DNA from: a virus
Strand: one strand, 5' to 3'
IMG/VR virus record: IMGVR_UViG_3300005466_000027
Span: 1 to 64,000 of that record
Length of the DNA: 64,000 bases
Position numbers and translations under genes: made by a program. A model generated the notes under the pieces. It did no database searches, was not told the DNA's origin, and was given only the letters and a program-made list of their open reading frames with translations. This document shows positions 7,774 through 50,600 of the stretch, piece by piece; position 1 is the stretch's first letter, and each line of letters begins with the position of its first letter.

Positions 7774-8352
7774 ATGGACTGGTGGCGTATCAAAACCAAA
7801 GCGCTTTCACAAGCGGAGTGCGAAAAAATCAGAGAGGTGGCCTTCACTTATGCGCAGGCCGACGCAACCATTGGGCATGGAGGCACAACCTCGGTGGTGG
7901 ACACGTCGATCCGCAAAAGCACACTGCGCTGGCTTCACCGGGAAGACCCGCGGCTCCAGTGGCTCTACCTGCGCATCGAGCACATCGTTGGGGACTTCAA
8001 CGCCAAGTATTTCGGGCTCGATCTTGCGGCCCAAGCCGGGGGATTCACCGATGTCCAGTTCACCGAATACCATGGTGAAAGCAATCAGCGCTACGATTGG
8101 CATGAGGATTGCAACTGGAAAGGCACAACGCCGTTCGACCGCAAACTTTCCTTGGTGATCCAACTTTCGTTGCCCAGTGAGTATCAAGGGGGCCGGTTGG
8201 AGCTACACAATGACCCGCTCCCAGATCATCTGTTCCGCGATCAGGGGGATATCATCATTTTCCCATCGTTCAACCGCCATCGGGTAACACCTGTCACCTC
8301 CGGCGACCGATACTCTCTCGTCACTTGGATTCACGGCCCACGCCTCCGGTAA
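7774..8352 (+). CDS. 2-oxoglutarate/Fe(II) oxygenase, prolyl 4-hydroxylase-like
   Basis: 192 residues. The double-stranded beta-helix signature is complete. The HxD iron motif is H110/D112 in YDWHEDCNW, the distal iron ligand is H169 in FPSFNRHRVTPV, and the 2-oxoglutarate-binding Arg is R179 in SGDRYSLVTWIHGP. The strand LVIQLSLPSEYQGG with GRLELHND is typical of PiuC/P4H-type enzymes. Such enzymes use O2 and 2-oxoglutarate to hydroxylate protein side chains or small molecules. Being 4 bases after the collagen-like gene makes X-Pro-Gly hydroxylation the first hypothesis. Substrate assignment is inference, and PiuC-like members with other substrates exist. Confidence 0.9.
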   Translation: MDWWRIKTKALSQAECEKIREVAFTYAQADATIGHGGTTSVVDTSIRKSTLRWLHREDPRLQWLYLRIEHIVGDFNAKYFGLDLAAQAGGFTDVQFTEYHGESNQRYDWHEDCNWKGTTPFDRKLSLVIQLSLPSEYQGGRLELHNDPLPDHLFRDQGDIIIFPSFNRHRVTPVTSGDRYSLVTWIHGPRLR

Positions 8353-11673: not shown

Positions 11674-12096
11674 ATGATGAAGTCCCTGCTTTATATCGAG
11701 GATGACCCGATGGAGGCTGAAGTCATTCAGCGGCTCTACCAGACAGTGCGGGTCAAGTTCCATGATGAGGTGGACTTTCGGGTAGCCAAATCATGGGAGG
11801 ACGGGTTGGCGTCGGTTGAGTCAGGACAACCTGATGTGGTGATCCTGGACCTCGTGCTACCACCCACCGTGGACACCGAGAGAGCGATCCAGAATATCGA
11901 AAGAGTTTGGAAGTTGTGGCCACCAATTCTCGTGCTCACCGGCAACACCTATGACTTGACTTTACGCCGCCGTTGCATCTTGGCCGGGGCCGACGATTTC
12001 ATGGTAAAACCCGACGCACGGCACGGTGGCTGCGAGCTGCTCTGTGAACGCGTCTACAGCGCTTATTTAAGGAGGCTGCGTGGATCGGGAGCCTGA
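11674..12096 (+). CDS. Stand-alone CheY-like response regulator receiver
   Basis: 140 residues, a single receiver domain without an output domain. All catalytic positions are present: acidic pair E9-D10-D11 (YIEDDP), phosphoacceptor D59 (VVILDL), T89 (LVLTGN) and K112 (FMVKPD). Such domains accept phosphate from histidine kinases and act by protein contact. It lies at the start of the lysis cassette, 55 bases after the previous gene, and its end overlaps the next gene. It might titrate or mimic a host response regulator, or time lysis. Both roles are inference. The alternative start ATG is 11677. Confidence 0.88.
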   Translation: MMKSLLYIEDDPMEAEVIQRLYQTVRVKFHDEVDFRVAKSWEDGLASVESGQPDVVILDLVLPPTVDTERAIQNIERVWKLWPPILVLTGNTYDLTLRRRCILAGADDFMVKPDARHGGCELLCERVYSAYLRRLRGSGA

Positions 12097-21405: not shown

Positions 21406-22239
21406 TCAATCCTTTTTATAGAAGGGCACGAGCGCCCCCTCAGCCGCAATCGGGAGCCCCTCAGCCCAAGCGGGTAAATCGGTGAGTAACTTGACAAACT
21501 CCTCGGGGGTTTGCGTGGGTCGGGAATAAGCAAGAGCTTGATCGTGAATAAGGGCACAGATTTCGTATCCACCGTCTTCGGCGTTTTGTGCTCCGTTGCA
21601 CATGATGTCTGCGGCGACGGCCTGCGTGGCATTTTCCGCCCACACCCCGCCCCAAATACCTGAATTGTGTCCCCATGTCACGCCTTTGAGGTTCTGGTAA
21701 AAGCTGACCGCTGTGGTCCCTTCGAACTTGCCTGGAACGATCCGGGGCAGTGGATAAGCAAGCTTACGACCACTGGGCAACCGCATGAGGAGGAACTCGA
21801 TACCCCCAGTCGTGATGACTTTGAATGAGATGTGCGGGCCTGCGGAGAAAACCTCACCCTTGTGCAGCACCGCGGCTTTGGCCGCGTCATCCAGATCACC
21901 CCAGAAATCGACTACTTTGCTGTGCTTCTTGCGCCATGCCTTGATGGCCTTGAACTCCAACCCCTCGGGCAGATCGTAATTGCTTGGGGGTTTCTTGCAG
22001 GAATCGCGGAATTTCGGGGCACCAAGTCCGAAGCCCGCGCCCAAAATTAGACCCTTCCCAACAAACCGTTGAGGGAACTTGTTCACCTCTTTTTCCGGTA
22101 TGCCGTAGACGAATGCAGCCATGCGCTTATAACGGTCAACGCCTTGCTTGTATTCTTCCAGCGCGTCCTCTTGGCCAGCCAGCCAGCATACGATACGAGC
22201 CTCGATGGCTGCGAAATCAGCATCATGCAGAAAGCTCAT
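21406..22239 (-). CDS. polA: Family A DNA polymerase, palm and fingers part (split gene, C-part)
   Basis: 277 residues carrying the polymerase active site. Motif A is DADFAAIEARIVCWLAG (D8, E13). Motif B is R58-x3-K62-x7-F70-G71 (QRFVGKGLILGAGFG). Motif C is ALIHDQALAY (H232-D233-Q234), in which the usual Glu of HDE is Gln. The thumb and exonuclease are missing here and are encoded by the gene at 22484. The split falls directly before motif A. Overlaps the intervening small gene by ATGA. Confidence 0.92.
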   Translation of the reverse strand: MSFLHDADFAAIEARIVCWLAGQEDALEEYKQGVDRYKRMAAFVYGIPEKEVNKFPQRFVGKGLILGAGFGLGAPKFRDSCKKPPSNYDLPEGLEFKAIKAWRKKHSKVVDFWGDLDDAAKAAVLHKGEVFSAGPHISFKVITTGGIEFLLMRLPSGRKLAYPLPRIVPGKFEGTTAVSFYQNLKGVTWGHNSGIWGGVWAENATQAVAADIMCNGAQNAEDGGYEICALIHDQALAYSRPTQTPEEFVKLLTDLPAWAEGLPIAAEGALVPFYKKD

Positions 22240-22487
22240 AAGAAAGTCTCTCCAGAAGAAATAACATCCTCAATTTTATAAGCGCCGTTGGGGTAATGTT
22301 TGATGCCGTGTTTTGTGCACAAGGTCACCCACCCACAGGGATTTGCTGGGTAAACGTAATCGGTGGGTTCGCCGCAAAATTCGTGGTACGCCAGCCCATT
22401 CCGAACTTGCATAACCAAGACTTCACACGTAGGGGAAATGGGTTGACTCAGCCAGTTTTTTGATTTGTAGGGAAGAGGAGGAATCAT
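22236..22487 (-). CDS. Small protein inserted between the two polymerase genes
   Basis: 83 residues with ATGA overlaps to both polymerase halves. Contains CEVLVMQVRNGLAYHEFCGE and CGWVTLCTKHGIKHYP, a four-Cys arrangement that could bind zinc. No homing-nuclease or intein motif seen. It may be a subunit that helps the split enzyme assemble, or an unrelated insertion. The ribosome site GGAGG for it is embedded in the last codons of the upstream half. Confidence 0.75.
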   Translation of the reverse strand: MIPPLPYKSKNWLSQPISPTCEVLVMQVRNGLAYHEFCGEPTDYVYPANPCGWVTLCTKHGIKHYPNGAYKIEDVISSGETFL

Positions 22488-23665
22488 TGCGCGTCCTCCA
22501 CAAAGTGTCTGATACAGCTCGAAATCACCTGCAGCGGTGGCCCGTAAACCAACTCCACCATATCCCTTGACATACCTGCACAGATGTCACGGTAAGCCTC
22601 CTCGCTATTATCAATAGTAGGGCGCTTCATATTTTGAAATTGCACCAGGGAATTTGTCGATCTACCCGTGGTAGCTCCATGGTGATTCAGCATCCCCCGT
22701 ATCCGATTATCCCCCGGCCCCACACACGCGAGCATGGTCTGCACTTTCTTGATGGCAGCGTAGCTCACGGATGCCCGCAGAGCGAGTGCCTCGCGAACCA
22801 CACATGGAACGTATCCACCACTTTCGTCTTCAAGAAAAGTTTCCACCGTAGCCGCCTGCAAATCGCCGTACGGGTATCCCGCCGTCTGCGCCCAAGCGAG
22901 CACCTTCGCTCCCTGCGTAAACTCCAAGCCCGTCAGATCTTTAAACTTCTTCGACACGATTTCCGTTTCCTCGTCGATCAGCTTTTGCGCATGACGCAGA
23001 GCTGGTATATTCACCGTTACGCCGCGGGCGTTGATAATCTCATGCAAGGTGTAGTTGCGGTTGTTGATCGGATCATCGAAGTAGGCCAGGCGACGCGCCA
23101 CCTCCTGCTCCGCACGCACGTCCTGACGGCAGTAGTCCACAAAGCGCATGAAGTCTTCGGGGTCGTCCTCCGGGTGAATCCGACGCACGGGCACACCATC
23201 AGGGTTTTTCTTGGTCGGCTTCTTCGCGGGCTGCATCATGGAGAATTTCTTGATGAGCCGCTTGCCGTCTTTGTCCTTGATGACGGTGCCGAGAAACTCG
23301 CTGAGCTTTTCCAGTTTGGCCGGGAGAGCTGCACGACGGGCAAGGGACATGGTGCAGCGGAAGCGCTCGATGGCTGGTGGCCGTATGCCCCAGGTTTTCC
23401 ACATCAGCGCTTGGCTCATCGCGTACTCAAATTGTGCATTGTGGGCGACCACTAACACGCTGGGGTCTTCCAGCGCATCCCAGTAAGGATCGAGCTTGGC
23501 CAGCTCTGCATCCGGCATGCTCCTCCACCACGCTACGGGTTCTTCGTTGTCAAAGGCCATCGCACAGCACAGAATCTCTGTGGATTTGTCAAGGCTATAT
23601 CGGTAGCCTCCGACTTCGGTGATGTCGGCTTGACTGAAGGACTCGTAGTCGAGGTGAAGGTGCAT
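22484..23665 (-). CDS. polA: Family A DNA polymerase, exonuclease and thumb part (split gene, N-part)
   Basis: 393 residues. N-terminal DEDDy 3'-5' exonuclease: LHLDYESFSQADI (Exo I), VVAHNAQFEYAMSQ (Exo II), YCRQDVRAEQEV (Exo III). Then a thumb-type helical region and the conserved GATTGRSTNSLVQFQNMKRP, after which polymerases normally continue into motif A. Here the protein ends CIRHFVEDAQ and the rest is a separate gene. The Met at 23665 is chosen because the exonuclease begins there. The longer frame adds non-homologous residues. Confidence 0.92.
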   Translation of the reverse strand: MHLHLDYESFSQADITEVGGYRYSLDKSTEILCCAMAFDNEEPVAWWRSMPDAELAKLDPYWDALEDPSVLVVAHNAQFEYAMSQALMWKTWGIRPPAIERFRCTMSLARRAALPAKLEKLSEFLGTVIKDKDGKRLIKKFSMMQPAKKPTKKNPDGVPVRRIHPEDDPEDFMRFVDYCRQDVRAEQEVARRLAYFDDPINNRNYTLHEIINARGVTVNIPALRHAQKLIDEETEIVSKKFKDLTGLEFTQGAKVLAWAQTAGYPYGDLQAATVETFLEDESGGYVPCVVREALALRASVSYAAIKKVQTMLACVGPGDNRIRGMLNHHGATTGRSTNSLVQFQNMKRPTIDNSEEAYRDICAGMSRDMVELVYGPPLQVISSCIRHFVEDAQ

Positions 23666-23676
23666 GTATGCGGGAA

Positions 23677-23961
23677 TCAGCGGGAGTAATCCCGTTTCTC
23701 GTCGAGCAGAAGACGCATGTAGCAATCTGGGCAAACATGCCCAAGGGTAGGTCTGTTACCTACCGCGAACCACACTGCGGTGTTCTGGCATCCTGGTGTC
23801 AGACATGGATAACGTGTGTCCTTATTCGCTGCCACCACCTCACTCCTCGGCAGCGAAGGGACGCAGGTGCAAGGCTGCCCCGCTTCCACGTCCCGCGCAC
23901 AGAAGTGGCAAGGACGGGATTTGGGACGCGGATCGCGGTCGATGTAGTAGGCGTGGTCCAC
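23677..23961 (-). CDS. Cys-rich zinc-finger protein
   Basis: 94 residues. Cysteine pairs CHFCARDVEAGQPCTC, CLTPGCQN and CPDCYMRL indicate two zinc sites. Between SSB-like and polymerase genes, 3 and 11 bases spacing. Likely nucleic-acid or protein binding. Not assigned to a family. Confidence 0.7.
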   Translation of the reverse strand: MDHAYYIDRDPRPKSRPCHFCARDVEAGQPCTCVPSLPRSEVVAANKDTRYPCLTPGCQNTAVWFAVGNRPTLGHVCPDCYMRLLLDEKRDYSR

Positions 23962-33664: not shown

Positions 33665-33976
33665 TTATCTCTGCACCTCTTTGGACGCGGCGAGCGCGGC
33701 GCGGGCCGCATGTAGGTCCACAGTGACACCTTCGCCAGTGTGATGACCGCAAGAAATTGAGTCAACATGCGCGATGAAATCGGCTTCCGCTTTCTTGATC
33801 TGCCCCAGGCTCATACAGCCTTTATGTGATTCTTTTCGTGTGATGTATGCAAGGCACTGTTCCAGCGCTGTGTGCAACTTCTCCACTTCGGCTAGTGCGG
33901 CACCATATTCAACGTAGGTTCCATCGCTGTGAACGCGAGTCACCCCACCTTGTGTTTCGTATCGTGTCATTTTCAT
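33665..33976 (-). CDS. Small early protein
   Basis: 103 residues from the Met at 33976. ETQGGVTRVHSDGTYVEY then a helix LAEVEKLHTALEQCLAYITR and HAARAALAASK. A repeat copy is 34 bases upstream of the start. Unknown. Confidence 0.6.
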   Translation of the reverse strand: MKMTRYETQGGVTRVHSDGTYVEYGAALAEVEKLHTALEQCLAYITRKESHKGCMSLGQIKKAEADFIAHVDSISCGHHTGEGVTVDLHAARAALAASKEVQR

Positions 33977-34074
33977 AAAATAGAGTTTTGATGTTCTGCA
34001 GATGGCCGGGGCGCGTGGTCTGACAACGTGGCTTGGCAGCCGGTCAGGGCCACGAACCCCGGCGTTTTTCCGCA

Positions 34075-34725
34075 TCACTGGAAAAGGTATATGGGGCAAA
34101 GTTGATCCATCAGCTCAACCCCTGGAGAACCTGCGGCACGGAGAGCCTCAATACCAGTTTCAGCGCAAAGGCTAAGCACTTCATCGCGGGCGGCGGCGGC
34201 GGCGTAGACGGCGTCGGCGGCGGCGGCGTAGGCGTCGGCGGCGTCGGCGGCGTAGGCGGCGGCCCTCGCCACTTTCTTAGCTTCGACCACAGCTTCAATA
34301 GTGCCTTCCCGCTCACACTTCGAAGCTGAGGCTTCCAATTTTTCACGATAGGATGCGTTCCCTTTCATGGAAGCCGCTGCACGTAGGGCGCGTGGCATGA
34401 TTTGCCGGATTGTTTGTTCCAGTAGGACTGCTCGAAATACTGTCACGTCCAGTTGATCGGCGCTACCGAGCTGGGCAACCGCAATGCGTCGCATCCCCTT
34501 GGCGCGTGCTGTGTTGGAAGACCATTTCGAATCGTTGAGGCGGATTTTGAATTTACGGACGGCGGGGTGAACGCATGCCGGTTCGTCCCCGTGAGGTTGA
34601 CCCAGAGCGTAGCAAACTGCGGCTTCGACGCACATTTTGCCTGGGATGGGTTTACCGACGCCATGCACAAGGCCAGCGTCTACGGTAGTGAGAACTTTTT
34701 GAGCGATTTCAAGGGTGATGTTCAT
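34075..34725 (-). CDS. Alanine-repeat early protein
   Basis: 216 residues. N-terminal ~60 residues resemble known phage accessory proteins (TVDAGLVHGVGKPIPGKMCVE, AAVCYALGQPHGDEPACVHP). The middle is helical and basic. Residues ~155-185 are Ala/Tyr/Asp repeats (AAAYAADAADAYAAAADA), encoded by a GC-rich 3-base-period tract (34189-34262) that can change copy number. Such tails form helical bundles. Function unknown. Confidence 0.7.
   Translation of the reverse strand: MNITLEIAQKVLTTVDAGLVHGVGKPIPGKMCVEAAVCYALGQPHGDEPACVHPAVRKFKIRLNDSKWSSNTARAKGMRRIAVAQLGSADQLDVTVFRAVLLEQTIRQIMPRALRAAASMKGNASYREKLEASASKCEREGTIEAVVEAKKVARAAAYAADAADAYAAAADAVYAAAAARDEVLSLCAETGIEALRAAGSPGVELMDQLCPIYLFQ
34189..34262. 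repeat. GC-rich microsatellite-like tract in coding sequence
   Basis: Alternating GGCGGC, GTCGGC and GTAGGC units in a run of about 74 bases within the alanine-repeat gene. All units keep frame, so copy number can vary without a frameshift. Confidence 0.7.
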
Positions 34726-34819: not shown

Positions 34820-34848
34820 GTTTTTCCACTTCTCACGGTGAAAGGGGG

Positions 34849-35421: not shown

Positions 35422-35495
35422 CTTTTGGCCTGCTCTCTTCAGTTGCCAGTGGCCAGCCTGGGCAAGACACGCTCTGGGAAGCGTGTTTCGGCTGT

Positions 35496-36347
35496 TTACG
35501 CGAGGACAGGGGCAAGGCGCTCCACTTCGGCCCAGGTGATGCGATGGCAGCCTGCCACGATCCCGTGTTCGTTAATCGCGTCCAACTGGTAAGGCCCGAC
35601 TGGGCAGGTTTCCCCGTTGCGATGCCAGTTTTTGTGAGTGCGGGCGAAGCGATAGGCCTCGCGAGCGTCATGGAGCGGTACGCGAGCGCCGAGAGTAGAG
35701 ACAAGCTCCTCGCCCTCCACACGGAAGGCTGTGGGGAAAAGACGGGGGTTGAAATACTCCCCTGTTTCCCCGCGGAGCCATGCGGCGTAGCCTGCCTCTT
35801 GCTCCAATCGGGCAGCAAGCTCCCGTTTCGCTTCAGCCTTGGCGCGTGCCGCTTCAGCGCGTTGCGTGGCCAGCTTCAATCGCTCGATTGTCTTTTCGTC
35901 CACTTTGCGGCGCAGGCCGAAAAACTCGTTTACCTTGGCCGCGGACTCCAGCCACTTCGATTGTTCGGCGCGGTATTGGTCCTTGTTGCGCGCTTTCTCG
36001 ATTTTCGCGGCGAAGTAGGCAGCCCGCTTGACGGCATAGTCGAAAAGCTCTTTCCCGCCGATGTCGGAAAGGGAACTGCCCATATTGATTCCCCCGATGT
36101 GGAACACGGTCATACCGCTGACCGCTTGACGCAGCTGCCCTTGATGCTTACTCGTCGTCACGCTGTAGCTGGTGTCGTTGATGACGACGGCAGCTTTGCC
36201 TTTGTGTTCAATGTGGCGGGCGATGGCCGTGCCATAGGAAAGAAAGGCGTCGCCGTTGAAGGACATGGCCGATGGGGCTTCGCCACGGGGCGCGCCCTTG
36301 TGGGCCCAGACATGTGCGATTTCATTAGAGGTAAATTTCGTTTTCAT
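35496..36347 (-). CDS. Large early protein, conserved phage type
   Basis: 283 residues. N-terminal beta-rich region (FLSYGTAIARHIEHKGKAAV, NDTSYSVTTSKHQGQLRQAV, FHIGGINMG), then a helical middle (YFAAKIEKARNKDQYRAEQS, QRAEAARAKAEAKRELAAR) and a C-terminal unit with DAREAYRFARTHKNWHRNG. The N-terminal pattern (a short, switchable Tyr/Thr strand unit) resembles proteins of large phage genomes that have no known function. Promoter 54 bases upstream. Confidence 0.7.
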   Translation of the reverse strand: MKTKFTSNEIAHVWAHKGAPRGEAPSAMSFNGDAFLSYGTAIARHIEHKGKAAVVINDTSYSVTTSKHQGQLRQAVSGMTVFHIGGINMGSSLSDIGGKELFDYAVKRAAYFAAKIEKARNKDQYRAEQSKWLESAAKVNEFFGLRRKVDEKTIERLKLATQRAEAARAKAEAKRELAARLEQEAGYAAWLRGETGEYFNPRLFPTAFRVEGEELVSTLGARVPLHDAREAYRFARTHKNWHRNGETCPVGPYQLDAINEHGIVAGCHRITWAEVERLAPVLA

Positions 36348-39105: not shown

Positions 39106-39133
39106 AGCATACTCCACTTGTTGCATTCGTCAA
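39106..39133 (-). promoter_or_regulatory. Early promoter
   Basis: TTGACG, 16 bases, TATGCT on the minus strand. Almost identical to the promoter at 37.8 kb, but the -10 lies 8 bases from an ATG. Confidence 0.65.
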
Positions 39134-44414: not shown

Positions 44415-44642
44415 ATGAATACTCTTTCTCTTCTTGCTGTAGGCGCGCTCGGATCCACAGGCGGTTTGGTCGGTCTTCTCGTCTACGTGGCCATCGCCGC
44501 GGTTGTGGTGTGGGGCATCATCGCGCTGGTCAAGTGGAGTGGCATCGTCATACCGCAGCCGGTCTACATCATCCTCGTGTGCCTGGCGTGCATCTTCCTG
44601 ATCCTCTTGATTGCGCGTGCATTTGGTGTGCTGGCGGGGTAA
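44415..44642 (+). CDS. Two-span membrane protein
   Basis: 75 residues, nearly all hydrophobic: GLLVYVAIAAVVVWGIIALV and PVYIILVCLACIFLILLIA. Could be a small inner-membrane protein. Last gene of the plus-strand accessory operon. Confidence 0.65.
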   Translation: MNTLSLLAVGALGSTGGLVGLLVYVAIAAVVVWGIIALVKWSGIVIPQPVYIILVCLACIFLILLIARAFGVLAG

Positions 44643-44779
44643 AAGTTCTTGACGGATTCGTATAGATTACGATACGTTTCGAGCAGTTCTTTGAATCTTG
44701 AATTGAGCGTGGAGAGCCTCTGCTGGGTATGACTCAGCTTCTCTGGCGGGTAAGACGCCGCGTTCAATTCAGTCTTCAA
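44564..44779 (-). CDS. Possible small coiled-coil protein
   Basis: 71 codons on the minus strand, convergent with and overlapping the membrane gene by 79 bases. EKLSHTQQRLSTLNSRFKEL and LYESVKNF look protein-like, but the C-terminal part over the other gene does not. Low confidence. Confidence 0.3.
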   Translation of the reverse strand: MKTELNAASYPPEKLSHTQQRLSTLNSRFKELLETYRNLYESVKNFYPASTPNARAIKRIRKMHARHTRMM

Positions 44780-44781
44780 TG

Positions 44782-44888
44782 AAGCAGGTGGACAAATTGG
44801 TAAAGTCGGCTCAGACGAGTAGCTGGTGCGCTGACGGGTTGATCGCCGTCAGTTCCCAGTCCTGCAGGTTCAACTCCTGCCCTGCTTC
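44782..44888 (+). tRNA. tRNA-like gene, anticodon uncertain
   Basis: The 3' half is canonical: T arm GCAGG-TTCAACT-CCTGC followed by CCTGCTT, which pairs perfectly with AAGCAGG at the 5' end (plus G-C outside). The D arm GAC-AAATTGGTAAA-GTC has the expected GG. The rest is long (107 bases in total) with a CTGACGG/CCGTCAG stem, and no standard anticodon loop is evident. It may be a long-variable-arm or non-standard tRNA or a degenerate copy. CCA not encoded. Confidence 0.5.
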
Positions 44889-44897
44889 CCCTTTTAA

Positions 44898-45090
44898 TTT
44901 TTGTTGGTGGCGGCTTCCCACGGGCGGTGCAATTCCGCAGACTGTCTACTGAGGGAATACCTGCTTGAAATGGCGTCTGTGGCAATACGGTAGGCGGGCA
45001 AGTGCTCGTGCCAGTCCCTTTGGCGGGTGTTGGAGTGAGAAGTCGTGTTTTTCGACCGAGGCTGCTCAGCCATCCCGCCACCAACAAAAA
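44898..45090 (+). ncRNA. Structured RNA candidate with perfect 16-bp closing helix
   Basis: 193 bases between two tRNA-type genes, with no reading frame on the plus strand. TTTTTGTTGGTGGCGG (44898-44913) pairs without mismatch with 45075-45090. Inside: CCGCAGAC (44935) with GTCTGTGG (44975), GGCA with TGCC (44997/45009), GTCG with CGAC (45042/45053) and GGCT with AGCC (45060/45068). Multi-branched RNA fold. A TTGACG promoter candidate is at 44650. Known small RNAs are not recognised. Confidence 0.6.
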
Positions 45091-45157
45091 CGGTTGACGA
45101 CCTCAGCAGTAATGATATCGTTCCGTTCTGTGATTTTCTCGCCGCGACCCCGATTCT

Positions 45158-45196
45158 GATACCACCCCGCTCTGCACCTGTTCAGAGCGGTGTATC
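45158..45196 (+). ncRNA. Strong hairpin before tRNA-Pro
   Basis: CCGCTCTG (45167-45174) pairs with CAGAGCGG (45183-45190), extended by GATAC/GTATC with a small bulge. Loop CACCTGTT. Ends 4 bases before tRNA-Pro, so it may be a processing signal. A promoter-like TTGACG lies at 45094. Confidence 0.45.
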
Positions 45197-45200
45197 AACT

Positions 45201-45278
45201 CGCGTCGTGGGCTAATCTGGCTAAGCCGTCTGCCCTGGGAGCAGGACAATGTGCGTTCGAATCGCACCGACGCGACCA
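45201..45278 (+). tRNA. tRNA-Pro (anticodon TGG), CCA encoded
   Basis: Clean cloverleaf: acceptor CGCGTCG/CGACGCG, D arm GGCT-AGCC, anticodon stem TCTGC/GCAGG, T arm GTGCG-TTCGAAT-CGCAC, discriminator A and CCA (45276-45278). The anticodon loop is CCTGGGA with C at position 33 instead of the near-universal U. Confidence 0.85.
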
Positions 45279-45287
45279 CTTTTCAAT

Positions 45288-45317
45288 CCCCCTCACTGTT
45301 GCGACGGTGGGGTTTTT
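45288..45317 (+). terminator. Terminator after tRNA-Pro
   Basis: CCC-T-CAC pairs with GTG-GGG (10-base loop), then TTTTT at 45313. Confidence 0.6.
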
Positions 45318-45345
45318 ACCACCCGCCCGATGAGGGCGATTCCAA

Positions 45346-45379
45346 GGCCACCTGTCACCGGGTGGTCTTGTTCTTTTTT
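45346..45379 (+). terminator. Second terminator of the tRNA region
   Basis: GGCCACC pairs with GGTGGTC (one G-U) and is followed by TTGTTCTTTTTT. Tandem terminators end the tRNA region before the large virion genes. Confidence 0.7.
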
Positions 45380-45438
45380 GCACGGATTGCTTTACGCTGT
45401 TGACTATTGACAACGGATGTGGTTTGACTGTCAGGCAA

Positions 45439-46232: not shown

Positions 46233-47624
46233 ATGCCCTCCCGCGCCCGTATCGTGCCAAGAATGTATCAGGGACTTGGCCGCACTGTCCCCGGCGCGAC
46301 CTATGGATTCCACAACCCCCAGCAGGACGATCTGCGCGGGGCGCAAGCCCTGGAAGGCGATTACCGGGATGCCTTGGTCCAGGAACACCATGCGGCGGAT
46401 GAGCGCTACCGGCAGATGCACGCCGAACTGGAGCTGGCCAAGCTGCGCCGCGAACTGGCCCACGACGAGGCCAAGACACAGCGCCGGATCAAGTATGAGG
46501 CCATGATGGAGAAGGCGGTGCCGGAGCTTTACGCCATCGACCCCGCCGACCCGCAGGCCGTGCAGAAGCGAGCCCAATTTGCCCAGCGTTGGCCACAGCT
46601 TTTTCACAAGGAAAACGATGTCCCCGGCATCACCTCGGAGTTTGAACAGCATACCCGGCTCTCGGGTGAAGCTGAGCGGCAGCGTAATGCGGTCCAAGCG
46701 AAGAAGGAAGCGGCGGAACAACGTGCTGCGGATATCAAAGAGCGGATGGAGCAACGTGAGCGCGATAAGCAGGAGGCCGAGGATCGCCGCAAGAAGGATG
46801 TGCAGGAGCGCGAAAGCCAGCGCAAACAGGATTTGCGCGAAAATCATCTCGGCTACGCCCGTGGGAAATACGATACTGCTGAAGAGGAGTCCACCATCCT
46901 CGGCAAGCGGATCACCGAGAACCAAGGATACATCGACGCTATCAAGGGACAGTTAAAACCAAATGAACAGCCAAGCGTTGACCAGCAAAAGCAGTTGGAC
47001 CTTTTGGTGAAGAGTCAGGACCAGTTGAAGGCTGAAAAAGCACGGCACGATTCCAAGATGAAAGGGCTCGTAGCTCAGTTTCCGGAGCTGGACCCAGCCT
47101 ACGTGCCCAAGGAGAAATCCGAAACGGCTACTGCTTCGGGTACCGGCTCACCCGCTGCCATCGACACCGCGCAGCCGGATGTCTCCGCGATCCAGGGTAC
47201 CACCCCTCTCGCCCGAGGGACGGCCACACCGAGCGGCGAGATGGATTTGAGCGGTTCCACCAATGGCACTGCTACGCCGCCGCCCGAAGCCGGGGATGCG
47301 GTGGTGCCGGATACCGGGGGAGAAGACTCCGTGGCGAACTTGTCTAGGGCTACGCCGCCACCCGCCGCTGCGCCTGTTGCCGTTCCGCTGCCCACCGGAG
47401 AGGACGCTGTTCCGAATCTCGCTGCGGTCGCACCGGCTGCCGTAGCGCCTGTTGCCGCTGTCCCGCCGCCGCCCGCCGCCGCTGTGCCCCCTGTTGCCGA
47501 GCCGCACCCCTACGAGGGCATGCGGGTGAAGCAGAAAAGCACCGGCAAGTATGGTACGTTCAAGAATGGTCAATTTATCTCCGAGGAAGAGGAGCAAAAT
47601 CAGGATCAGCCAACACCCGAGTAA
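46233..47624 (+). CDS. Coiled-coil internal virion-like protein
   Basis: 463 residues. N-terminal RMYQGLGRTVPGATYGFHN, then a long highly charged coiled coil (EAAEQRAADIKERMEQRERD), a Thr/Pro/Ala-rich linker and a small terminal unit YEGMRVKQKSTGKYGTFKN. The stop directly precedes the next start. Likely ejected or internal capsid protein. Confidence 0.7.
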   Translation: MPSRARIVPRMYQGLGRTVPGATYGFHNPQQDDLRGAQALEGDYRDALVQEHHAADERYRQMHAELELAKLRRELAHDEAKTQRRIKYEAMMEKAVPELYAIDPADPQAVQKRAQFAQRWPQLFHKENDVPGITSEFEQHTRLSGEAERQRNAVQAKKEAAEQRAADIKERMEQRERDKQEAEDRRKKDVQERESQRKQDLRENHLGYARGKYDTAEEESTILGKRITENQGYIDAIKGQLKPNEQPSVDQQKQLDLLVKSQDQLKAEKARHDSKMKGLVAQFPELDPAYVPKEKSETATASGTGSPAAIDTAQPDVSAIQGTTPLARGTATPSGEMDLSGSTNGTATPPPEAGDAVVPDTGGEDSVANLSRATPPPAAAPVAVPLPTGEDAVPNLAAVAPAAVAPVAAVPPPPAAAVPPVAEPHPYEGMRVKQKSTGKYGTFKNGQFISEEEEQNQDQPTPE

Positions 47625-50600
47625 ATGGCCTACGACCTCACCGATTTTGAACCGGAGCAGGCGTCTCCGGTCGCGGTCAAGTCGCCCATCTCGAAATCCC
47701 GTCAAGACCTGAGTGATTTCGAGCCGGTGGAGACACCCGCTGAACCGACCGCGGCTGAACCCGCGGAGCAGGCTGCGCAGGCGACAGTTCCTCCTGTGCA
47801 ACCCGCCATCACCAACGACCCTTTCGCCGCGTTCAATGCCAAGCTGGAAAATTCTCCCGTGGCCAGGATGCCGGAGGTGAACTTGCCCGCGCAGTCCGCT
47901 GTCCCGGATGTCACTCGCCCCATTCAGCCGGTGCCGCAGGTAACGCCGGAAGACACGCTGCCGGTGGCCAAGGACGTGCCCAGCCGGGGCGTGTTTGTCA
48001 ACGAGACGCCGACGCTCATCAGCAATATCCGCGAAGGTAAATTCGAAGACGCGGCGGCACTGGCCAAGGAAAACGCGATGGGTTCCAAACCGATGCGATT
48101 CCTCTTCGGGCCCACCGAAGCTCAGAGGATCGCGGAGGCGGTTCCCGTGACCAAGGAGGATGGCATCACCAGCTACGAGTACAAACCGGCCAGCACGGAT
48201 GCTGTGGAGAAGCTGGGTGCGGTCGGGGCGGCACGTCGTTCCATCGCGTCCCTGGAGCGCGGCATCCCGGTGACGGAGTTGGATCAGAAGGTGGAAAGCG
48301 AGATGATGAAGGACGACCCCAGCGACAGCACGTTGAAGTCCATCGGCAAGGGGCTCTATAATGCGGTCCTCAGAACGACCGTGAGCCTTTCCGATCCGAC
48401 GATGGCTCTTATCCCGGAATCGAAGCTGGTCAGCGGTGCGTTTACGCTCGATATGGCCAACAGCGCCAAGGAACAAATTCAGAAAGGGCTGGAAGCGGAC
48501 AACCCTCGGGAAGCGGTCGAAGGATTGCTCGGGGGCGTCATCACCTTGGGCATGGCTGGGGTGTCGGGGAGCCATACGCTCAAGCCGACCAAGGCCGACA
48601 TCATCGAGCACATGGACAAGGTGCCGGATGAACTGTTGCACGAAGCCAACAAAGAACTGAAGTCCAGCGACCCGGATGTGGCCAGCGCGGCGGGGGCCGA
48701 GTTGATGAAACGGGCTGCCGACTTTGGTCAAGAGTTGGACGCCACGCTCAAGCGATTGCCTGGCGATGTGCAGGAGAAGGTCAATGGTATTCTGCAGAAA
48801 CAGCTCCGGGGTGAAGAACTAACCAACAACGAGCGTGCCACGCTGTTGCAGGTGCGGTCCTACGCTTCGCGGCTGCAGCAGGATAAGACCAACGACGAAT
48901 TTACTTCTGGAACGCCAGCACGAACAGCGCCGACGCAGCAAGTAGCGCCAGCAGAACCAGTAGGAACTGGGGGGCAGTCAGTGAGTCCACGTAATGAACC
49001 TGCGCCTGTTGTAGACGCGAGTCAACAAGGCGGCAGTGTAGCGGCGTCTGCCAAGGCTAAAGCGGAGGCAGCGACACAACCGCTGCGGGAAGTCGCAGCA
49101 GCCGTCCAAGAGACATTACCGCTCGCCGCTCAAGCAGCCAAGGAACAGGCGGATTTGCTGGCCAAACGGGCGCAGGAGCAGGCTGCGGCTGCAGAATCAA
49201 CTTCACCGCCGCCCGCCGTCGAACCTCCGGCATCGGGCCAACAGGAACCGCCACTCTCCGGGGAAGAAAGGCCCCCGGCTGCCACGGTCGCTCCTGTCAT
49301 GGAAGGGGCGGCGGCGAAGCCTGTCACACAGGGCACCAAGATCGTAGGCCCGGTCCTGCAGGTCGATGGTAAAACCTATGCCGAGGGCAAAATTGGGCAG
49401 CATCACAAAGACATCGTAGCTGAGGCGATTGACAACTATTTCAAGGCTAACCCGGATGCCGAGGAAGTGCCACGGTTCGATCACCGATTCAAGGACGACC
49501 AAGGCAACATCCACGACCGGGAGAGCGGCTGGGAGCTGGCCAAGAGTGCCAACCAGATTCCACCGGAAACGGCGAACGCAGTTGAAGCGCTGGCAAGCTC
49601 CAGTGGTGACAGACCGCAGCTTCACGCCGATCACTTGGTTGAAGGAGAATCCAGCTTGACGGAAACAGCAAACAATGGAGAAGCTGCTGGAATGACCAAA
49701 AAACCTTTTGAGGTAGATGAATCTCTTGTGATGAACTCACCACACACTGGAGATGACACGATTGTGAATTTTCGAGGAGTCCAAGGAGATAATGCAGTGG
49801 TGTGGACCGGGAGAAGTCAGATGATGGTGCCTCTGGAGTGGCTTCGCCGTGAAGGCGAGCCCCTTCAGAAAAAAGAAACCCCTTCTTCACAGGCTCAACT
49901 ACCTGCTGACGCCCCACATCCATCTACATCTGAGGGCAAAACGGAAGTAGCCGAGAAGGATTTTCCTAAAACAAAAGCAGACATCATTGAGGAACTTCTC
50001 GGTCCAGAGCCAAGCTACTTTGAAGGACAGATGAAGCAGAAAGAATCCGCCAAACAATACGCTAAATTTTCCAAACAGGAACTGGCTGAGAGACTACAAA
50101 ATAAGAGGGATTTTGAGAAAAAAAGTAAGGAATTAAGTCAGCGGATGATGTCCGTCGCTCCAGAGGTTTCTGCGCGCTTGGACGCTGCGGGAGGTAAATG
50201 GCGTGCAGAGGCCAACCAGATCGCAGAAGAACATGGTTTTGGTGAACGGTGGAGAGGGATGACCGACAACTCACGGGGGGAGGAAGCTGCTCGTCTTTCC
50301 AGTTTTTTGGCCGATTACGGATTTGATAAGCTGAAAAAGGAGCCTCCTGATGAACCTGTATCTTCGAAAGAGCCGATTACCGTGGAACGACCAGTGGTTG
50401 CACCGAATGAGCCTGTGGAGCGGCCACCGGCTGCGGATGCCGCTGCGACCGAGGCTTCCGTGGCGAAAGGCTCCCTTCTCGATAAATTAGAGTCCCTGCT
50501 GACCGAAGAGGAGCCGCCCGCCGCCGCGAAGGAAGCTCCGCAATCCCCCGCACAGAAGCGGGTGGCCGATATTCAGCGGGACATCGAAAATAACGCGGGT

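Follow-up and report, generated by a model that had tools for sequence, protein, structure and literature searches.

RNase III processing stems are familiar from rRNA precursors and from the early messages of phage T7. The tRNA regions of phages have themselves already been a source of surprising RNAs, the ROOL and GOLLD cages among them. As described in PMC12286853, ROOL and GOLLD are non-coding RNAs of phages and prophages that often lie near tRNA islands, and many GOLLD members exceed 800 nt and have an elaborate predicted structure. We analyzed a 193-base segment (44898-45090, labeled RNA3) within a 64-kb window, i.e., the whole stretch of DNA under study, which derives from a 71,864-base IMG/VR virus record. 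Judged against that description, the only likeness between the segment and GOLLD or ROOL is a site near phage tRNA genes (here tRNA-Pro at 45201-45278); unlike those RNAs, the segment is 193 nt long, matches neither model, and has no excess inner structure. A limited search of the literature found no description of this element.

The segment is bounded by a perfect 16-bp inverted repeat (44898-44913 and 45075-45090, plus strand) with 161 bases between its arms, and the closing helix claimed in an earlier, sequence-only reading was thus borne out to the exact coordinates and spacing. Pairing of the arms is purely Watson-Crick, with no G-U pairs. Among inverted repeats at up to 300 bases it is the longest in the window, the runner-up being 13 bp. 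One repeat with 16-bp arms and a span of up to 200 bases was observed where composition predicts 0.003 (an analytic value per window, the effective chance being raised by the attention that the sequence-only reading had drawn to the site and by the many windows involved), and none of 60 dinucleotide-shuffled windows contained one, consistent with the very low chance of occurrence that had been claimed. The accompanying statement that the segment holds no plausible reading frame stands in so far as nothing there shows a sign of coding; mechanical ORFs do cross it, one of 103 aa with a TTG start on the minus strand (44776-45087) and two of 57 and 64 aa on the plus strand.

When the whole segment was folded, the plus strand reached -77.5 kcal/mol (z -2.2; 3 of 200 shuffles were equally good) and the minus strand a z of -2.3. 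The interior alone (44914-45074), in which three arms are predicted on the plus strand, one of them with a 9-bp stem that includes G-U pairs, gave z +1.1 on the plus strand and +0.85 on the minus strand; 173 and 158 of 200 shuffles, respectively, folded as well or better, as did 412 and 395 in a repeat with 500 shuffles per strand. Because the interior yields such values by itself, the fold signal of the whole segment comes entirely from the closing helix, and the four further stems that had been put forward as structure are therefore not evidence of it. The excess inner stability that serves as a general mark of structured non-coding RNAs was not found when the interior was compared with shuffles, and the case illustrates how elaborate an otherwise unremarkable sequence may seem once a long helix closes it.

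In our judgment it is rather unlikely that the segment is a genuinely folded non-coding RNA that has a function of its own, with the 16-bp helix as its closing stem and an inside shaped by tertiary contacts or pseudoknots that escape the energy model. The long perfect helix, the predicted three-arm layout, and a location next to tRNA genes, which PMC12286853 describes for ROOL and GOLLD too, would all suit such an RNA, but the interior z-scores on both strands, a minimum-free-energy structure that makes up only 0.0006 of the ensemble, and the lack of any family match or relative speak against it. The idea of a new RNA with elaborate structure found no support other than the closing helix: the interior shows no structural excess, and the element is missing from the nearest relative phage. 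The segment is an orphan candidate, not an established RNA class, and its standing as a new structured class is unproven.

Comparison with known RNA families gave a similar picture. At gathering thresholds, Rfam 15 returned nothing at the segment, the sole match in the 64-kb window being Hammerhead_II at 35424-35493; with E-values up to 10, the 193-base segment had a single match, to mir-31_2 (13 bits, E 8.2, against a gathering threshold of 97). A search of the wider region recovered tRNA-Pro and two matches at 15 bits. The GOLLD and ROOL covariance models did not match the segment at E up to 10, and the earlier observation that it resembles neither GOLLD nor other known RNAs agrees with the Rfam models, which give no match above chance level. 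Neither ARAGORN nor the tRNA models matched the segment; loosened ARAGORN settings (-ps60, or -ps70 with introns) produced low-threshold calls only, on both strands, which we took as noise. A presumed likeness of the segment's 5' part to tRNA-Tyr was pursued and rejected, there being no tRNA call for a degenerate tRNA-Tyr at that place. When RNA3 was compared with 14 tRNAs of LR745206.1 and the record's own tRNA-Pro, no clear resemblance emerged (best shuffle z 3.5, n=15), whereas the control, tRNA-Pro against tRNA-Pro, gave z 12.6.

The repeat lies in a coding-poor gap of 757 bases (44643-45399) without a convincing gene, and its neighbors are as the sequence-only reading had placed them, with a non-standard tRNA-like gene on one side and tRNA-Pro on the other. 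All features of the gap described here are on the plus strand. A promoter-like site, P1 (44649-44678, TTGACG-18-TACGTT, with a weak second hexamer), was found by pattern search and is followed by RNA1 (44700-44770), a 71-nt candidate with a predicted closing stem of about 10 bp and two inner arms that form a three-way junction. The tRNA-like gene, RNA2 (44781-44890), has an 8-bp acceptor-like stem and a canonical T-arm, and no clear anticodon arm; ARAGORN called it in intron mode only, as Gln(ctg) with a 16-nt intron, and the tRNA-Sec model gave it only 13.3 bits. With boundaries chosen by eye, RNA1 (folded as 44700-44775) had z -3.17 (2 of 200 shuffles; -3.38 and 3 of 500 on repetition) and RNA2 (folded as 44776-44895) z -3.62 (1 of 200; -3.68 and 0 of 500 on repetition). 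When 2130 windows of 120 bases were scanned, RNA1 to RNA3 did not stand out: their lowest z was -2.0, outside the 40 lowest.

Beyond the segment lie a second promoter-like site, P2 (45094-45121, TTGACG-16-TATCGT, its second hexamer preceded by TG), a hairpin just 5' of tRNA-Pro (45157-45197; z -2.4 for 45091-45200, 4 of 200 shuffles), and the tRNA-Pro(TGG) gene itself, which encodes its CCA and was called by ARAGORN and by the tRNA model (52.1 bits). Two intrinsic terminators were predicted after it (45291-45317 and 45343-45379), both of them among the 40 lowest in the 120-base scan (z -3.2 and -3.3). The arrangement is like that of phage tRNA arrays, e.g., in LR745206.1, in that tRNA-Pro(TGG) shares its strand with tRNA-like genes whose anticodons are odd; unlike the LR745206.1 array, there is only one ordinary tRNA here. 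RNA1 also matched one tRNA-Asp of LR745206.1 (z 6.1), an isolated match.

The promoter-like sites are more frequent than shuffles would predict. With a pattern drawn up after the sites had been seen, TTGAC[AG]-N16-18-TANNNT, the 64-kb window held six matches, compared with 1.2 in shuffles (no more than 5 in any of 100), and its only two plus-strand matches, at 44649 and 45094, both fell in the 757-base gap, where 0.022 were expected and none of 1000 shuffles had two. The stricter form CTTGACG-N16-18-TANNNT occurred four times in the window, including at 44648, against 0.21. A stricter sigma-70 scan reported the site at 45094 and not that at 44649.

Our preferred explanation, tentative and at somewhat less than even confidence, is a short non-coding transcription unit to which the segment belongs, with the 16-bp duplex serving as a stem for processing or insulation. 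The unit would run from P1 through RNA1, the tRNA-like RNA2, and the 193-base segment to P2, tRNA-Pro, and the two terminators. Since promoter-like sites, tRNA neighbors, and terminators are all on the same strand, transcription of the segment as non-coding RNA is plausible. The duplex would form in the precursor and isolate, or mark for cutting, a spacer or small RNA; RNase III of the host would probably cut it, freeing the tRNA-like and tRNA-Pro flanks, and the enclosed piece of about 190 nt would be released or discarded. Those phage proteins that were scanned did not include an RNase III, and the model therefore depends on an enzyme of the host. The likeness to the RNase III stems of rRNA precursors and T7 early messages would consist in a long, near-perfect duplex that encloses an RNA segment within a multi-part transcript beside tRNAs; unlike in those cases, the enclosed segment is no known stable RNA.

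Several observations point to this non-coding unit: the repeat is far above chance, two promoter-like sites occur in the gap, tandem terminators directly follow tRNA-Pro, the plus-strand folds of RNA1 and RNA2 are good, and the whole unit folds with z -5.3 (20 shuffles). A spacer that a processing stem closes off would likewise be expected to have an interior without unusual structure. Against the unit are (i) the lack of a terminator after the repeat itself, (ii) the weak second hexamer of P1 and the choice of the promoter pattern after the sites were known, (iii) the unremarkable values of RNA1 to RNA3 in the 120-base scan, and (iv) the lack, in the searches run, of a relative in which the repeat is maintained. 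If expressed, the locus would be a compact case in which unusual tRNA-like RNAs and an RNA bounded by a duplex come from a promoter of the unit's own. The further step to a new class of small phage RNA, in which the unit makes RNA1 and RNA2 (tRNA-sized) along with an RNA of about 190 nt excised via the duplex, perhaps as mimics of tRNAs or to protect them during infection, seems quite unlikely.

Relatives were sought through protein-coding neighbors. A helicase probe identified seven loci, of which one, IMGVR_UViG_3300009174_000006 (G001), was close (85% identical) and six were more distant. An exonuclease alignment led to the same phage as the sole relative and matched none of the genome contigs; the neighboring proteins at 47625-49500 and 46233-47624, used as probes, yielded no relative, nor did the reading frame over the segment, which served only as a degenerate DNA probe. 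The G001 contig (53,170 bases) is probably near complete, because its primase match runs across both ends. ARAGORN found no tRNA in it, and the segment's DNA had nothing beyond a 21-base chance match to it. The only close relative thus lacks both the element and any tRNA. A single-sequence covariance model (R1, built from one row entered twice) matched only the window's own record among seven records, and not G001; the helicase locus L013 was not one of the seven. Over 25 sources, the next best R1 score was 13.7 bits, at a locus that had been picked by an interior 16-mer and is thus biased.

These results bear on the possibility that nothing is maintained at the site and that a fortuitous inverted repeat sits in a decayed tRNA region. 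A closest phage without tRNAs or a match to the segment would fit this, as would the ordinary interior and the resemblance of RNA2 to a degraded tRNA; against an expectation of about 0.003 such repeats per window, we regard it as unlikely.

Searches with the segment itself, in IMG/VR, GTDB genomes, phages, and plasmids, revealed no homologue. BLAST against phages and plasmids gave chance matches only, and no closing helix with the same 12-base arms occurred in GTDB genomes. Seven IMG/VR stretches that carry the closing-helix pattern were read as chance occurrences, their arms being the low-complexity words GGTGGCGG/CCGCCACC; their interiors, folded and judged by eye, look unrelated to RNA3, three of them (L003, L006, and L007) are near-identical to one another, and none was significant against the RNA3 model (best 11.8 bits, E 0.24). 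Twelve stretches (3 + 9) obtained with two interior 16-mers were likewise rejected: in local alignment their likeness is confined to a short core at the probe, with no repeat above 9 bp (3 of the 12 were examined closer). A proposed homology between 44415-44642 and L023:9064-9261 was also dropped (E 0.062 over 9 residues), and positional homology in the relative was not established.

The repeat could instead be a DNA element, either the relic of a small inverted-repeat (MITE-like) insertion or an invertible segment, which we consider very unlikely. Perfect Watson-Crick arms without G-U pairs are as expected of DNA termini, the interior has no RNA structure, and the nearest relative lacks the element. 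However, each arm is single-copy in the record (71,864 bases), even when two mismatches are allowed, no target-site duplication is visible at the ends, the GTDB search returned no copy, and no recombinase or transposase domain appeared among the subset of proteins scanned; nor is there a promoter-like site inside (44914-45074), as an inverton with its invertible promoter would have.

Other features of the window and its relatives were noted along the way. Sites of the form (C)TTGACG/A-N16-18-TANNNT recur at 39133, 37814, 36429, and 32064 (minus strand) and at 44649 and 45094 (plus strand). The Hammerhead_II match, a type II hammerhead ribozyme on the minus strand (35424-35493, 41.3 bits), lies directly after the stop of the ORF at 35496-36347, on the same strand. 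Short words, among them CACGCGCC and GCATCAC, read by eye, recur just 5' of start codons between 31300 and 38000 (minus strand), possibly as a translation or regulatory signal. The strongest fold in the 120-base scan (z -5.3) was a GC-rich hairpin at a gene junction, 33961-34080 (minus strand), and similar structured junctions seem, by eye, to lie near 34820 and 37520. DNA polymerase A is split into two ORFs (21406-22239 and 22484-23734, minus strand) and, in the relative (L025 3809-7326), into three pieces with interruptions of about 770 bases, which intron models did not match. The phage also encodes a response-regulator receiver domain (11674-12096) and a 2OG-Fe(II) oxygenase (7774-8352), both on the plus strand, and the locus L022 (27-2372) carries genes with domains of transketolase, alcohol dehydrogenase, and E1 dehydrogenase, a metabolic cassette that is unusual in phages.
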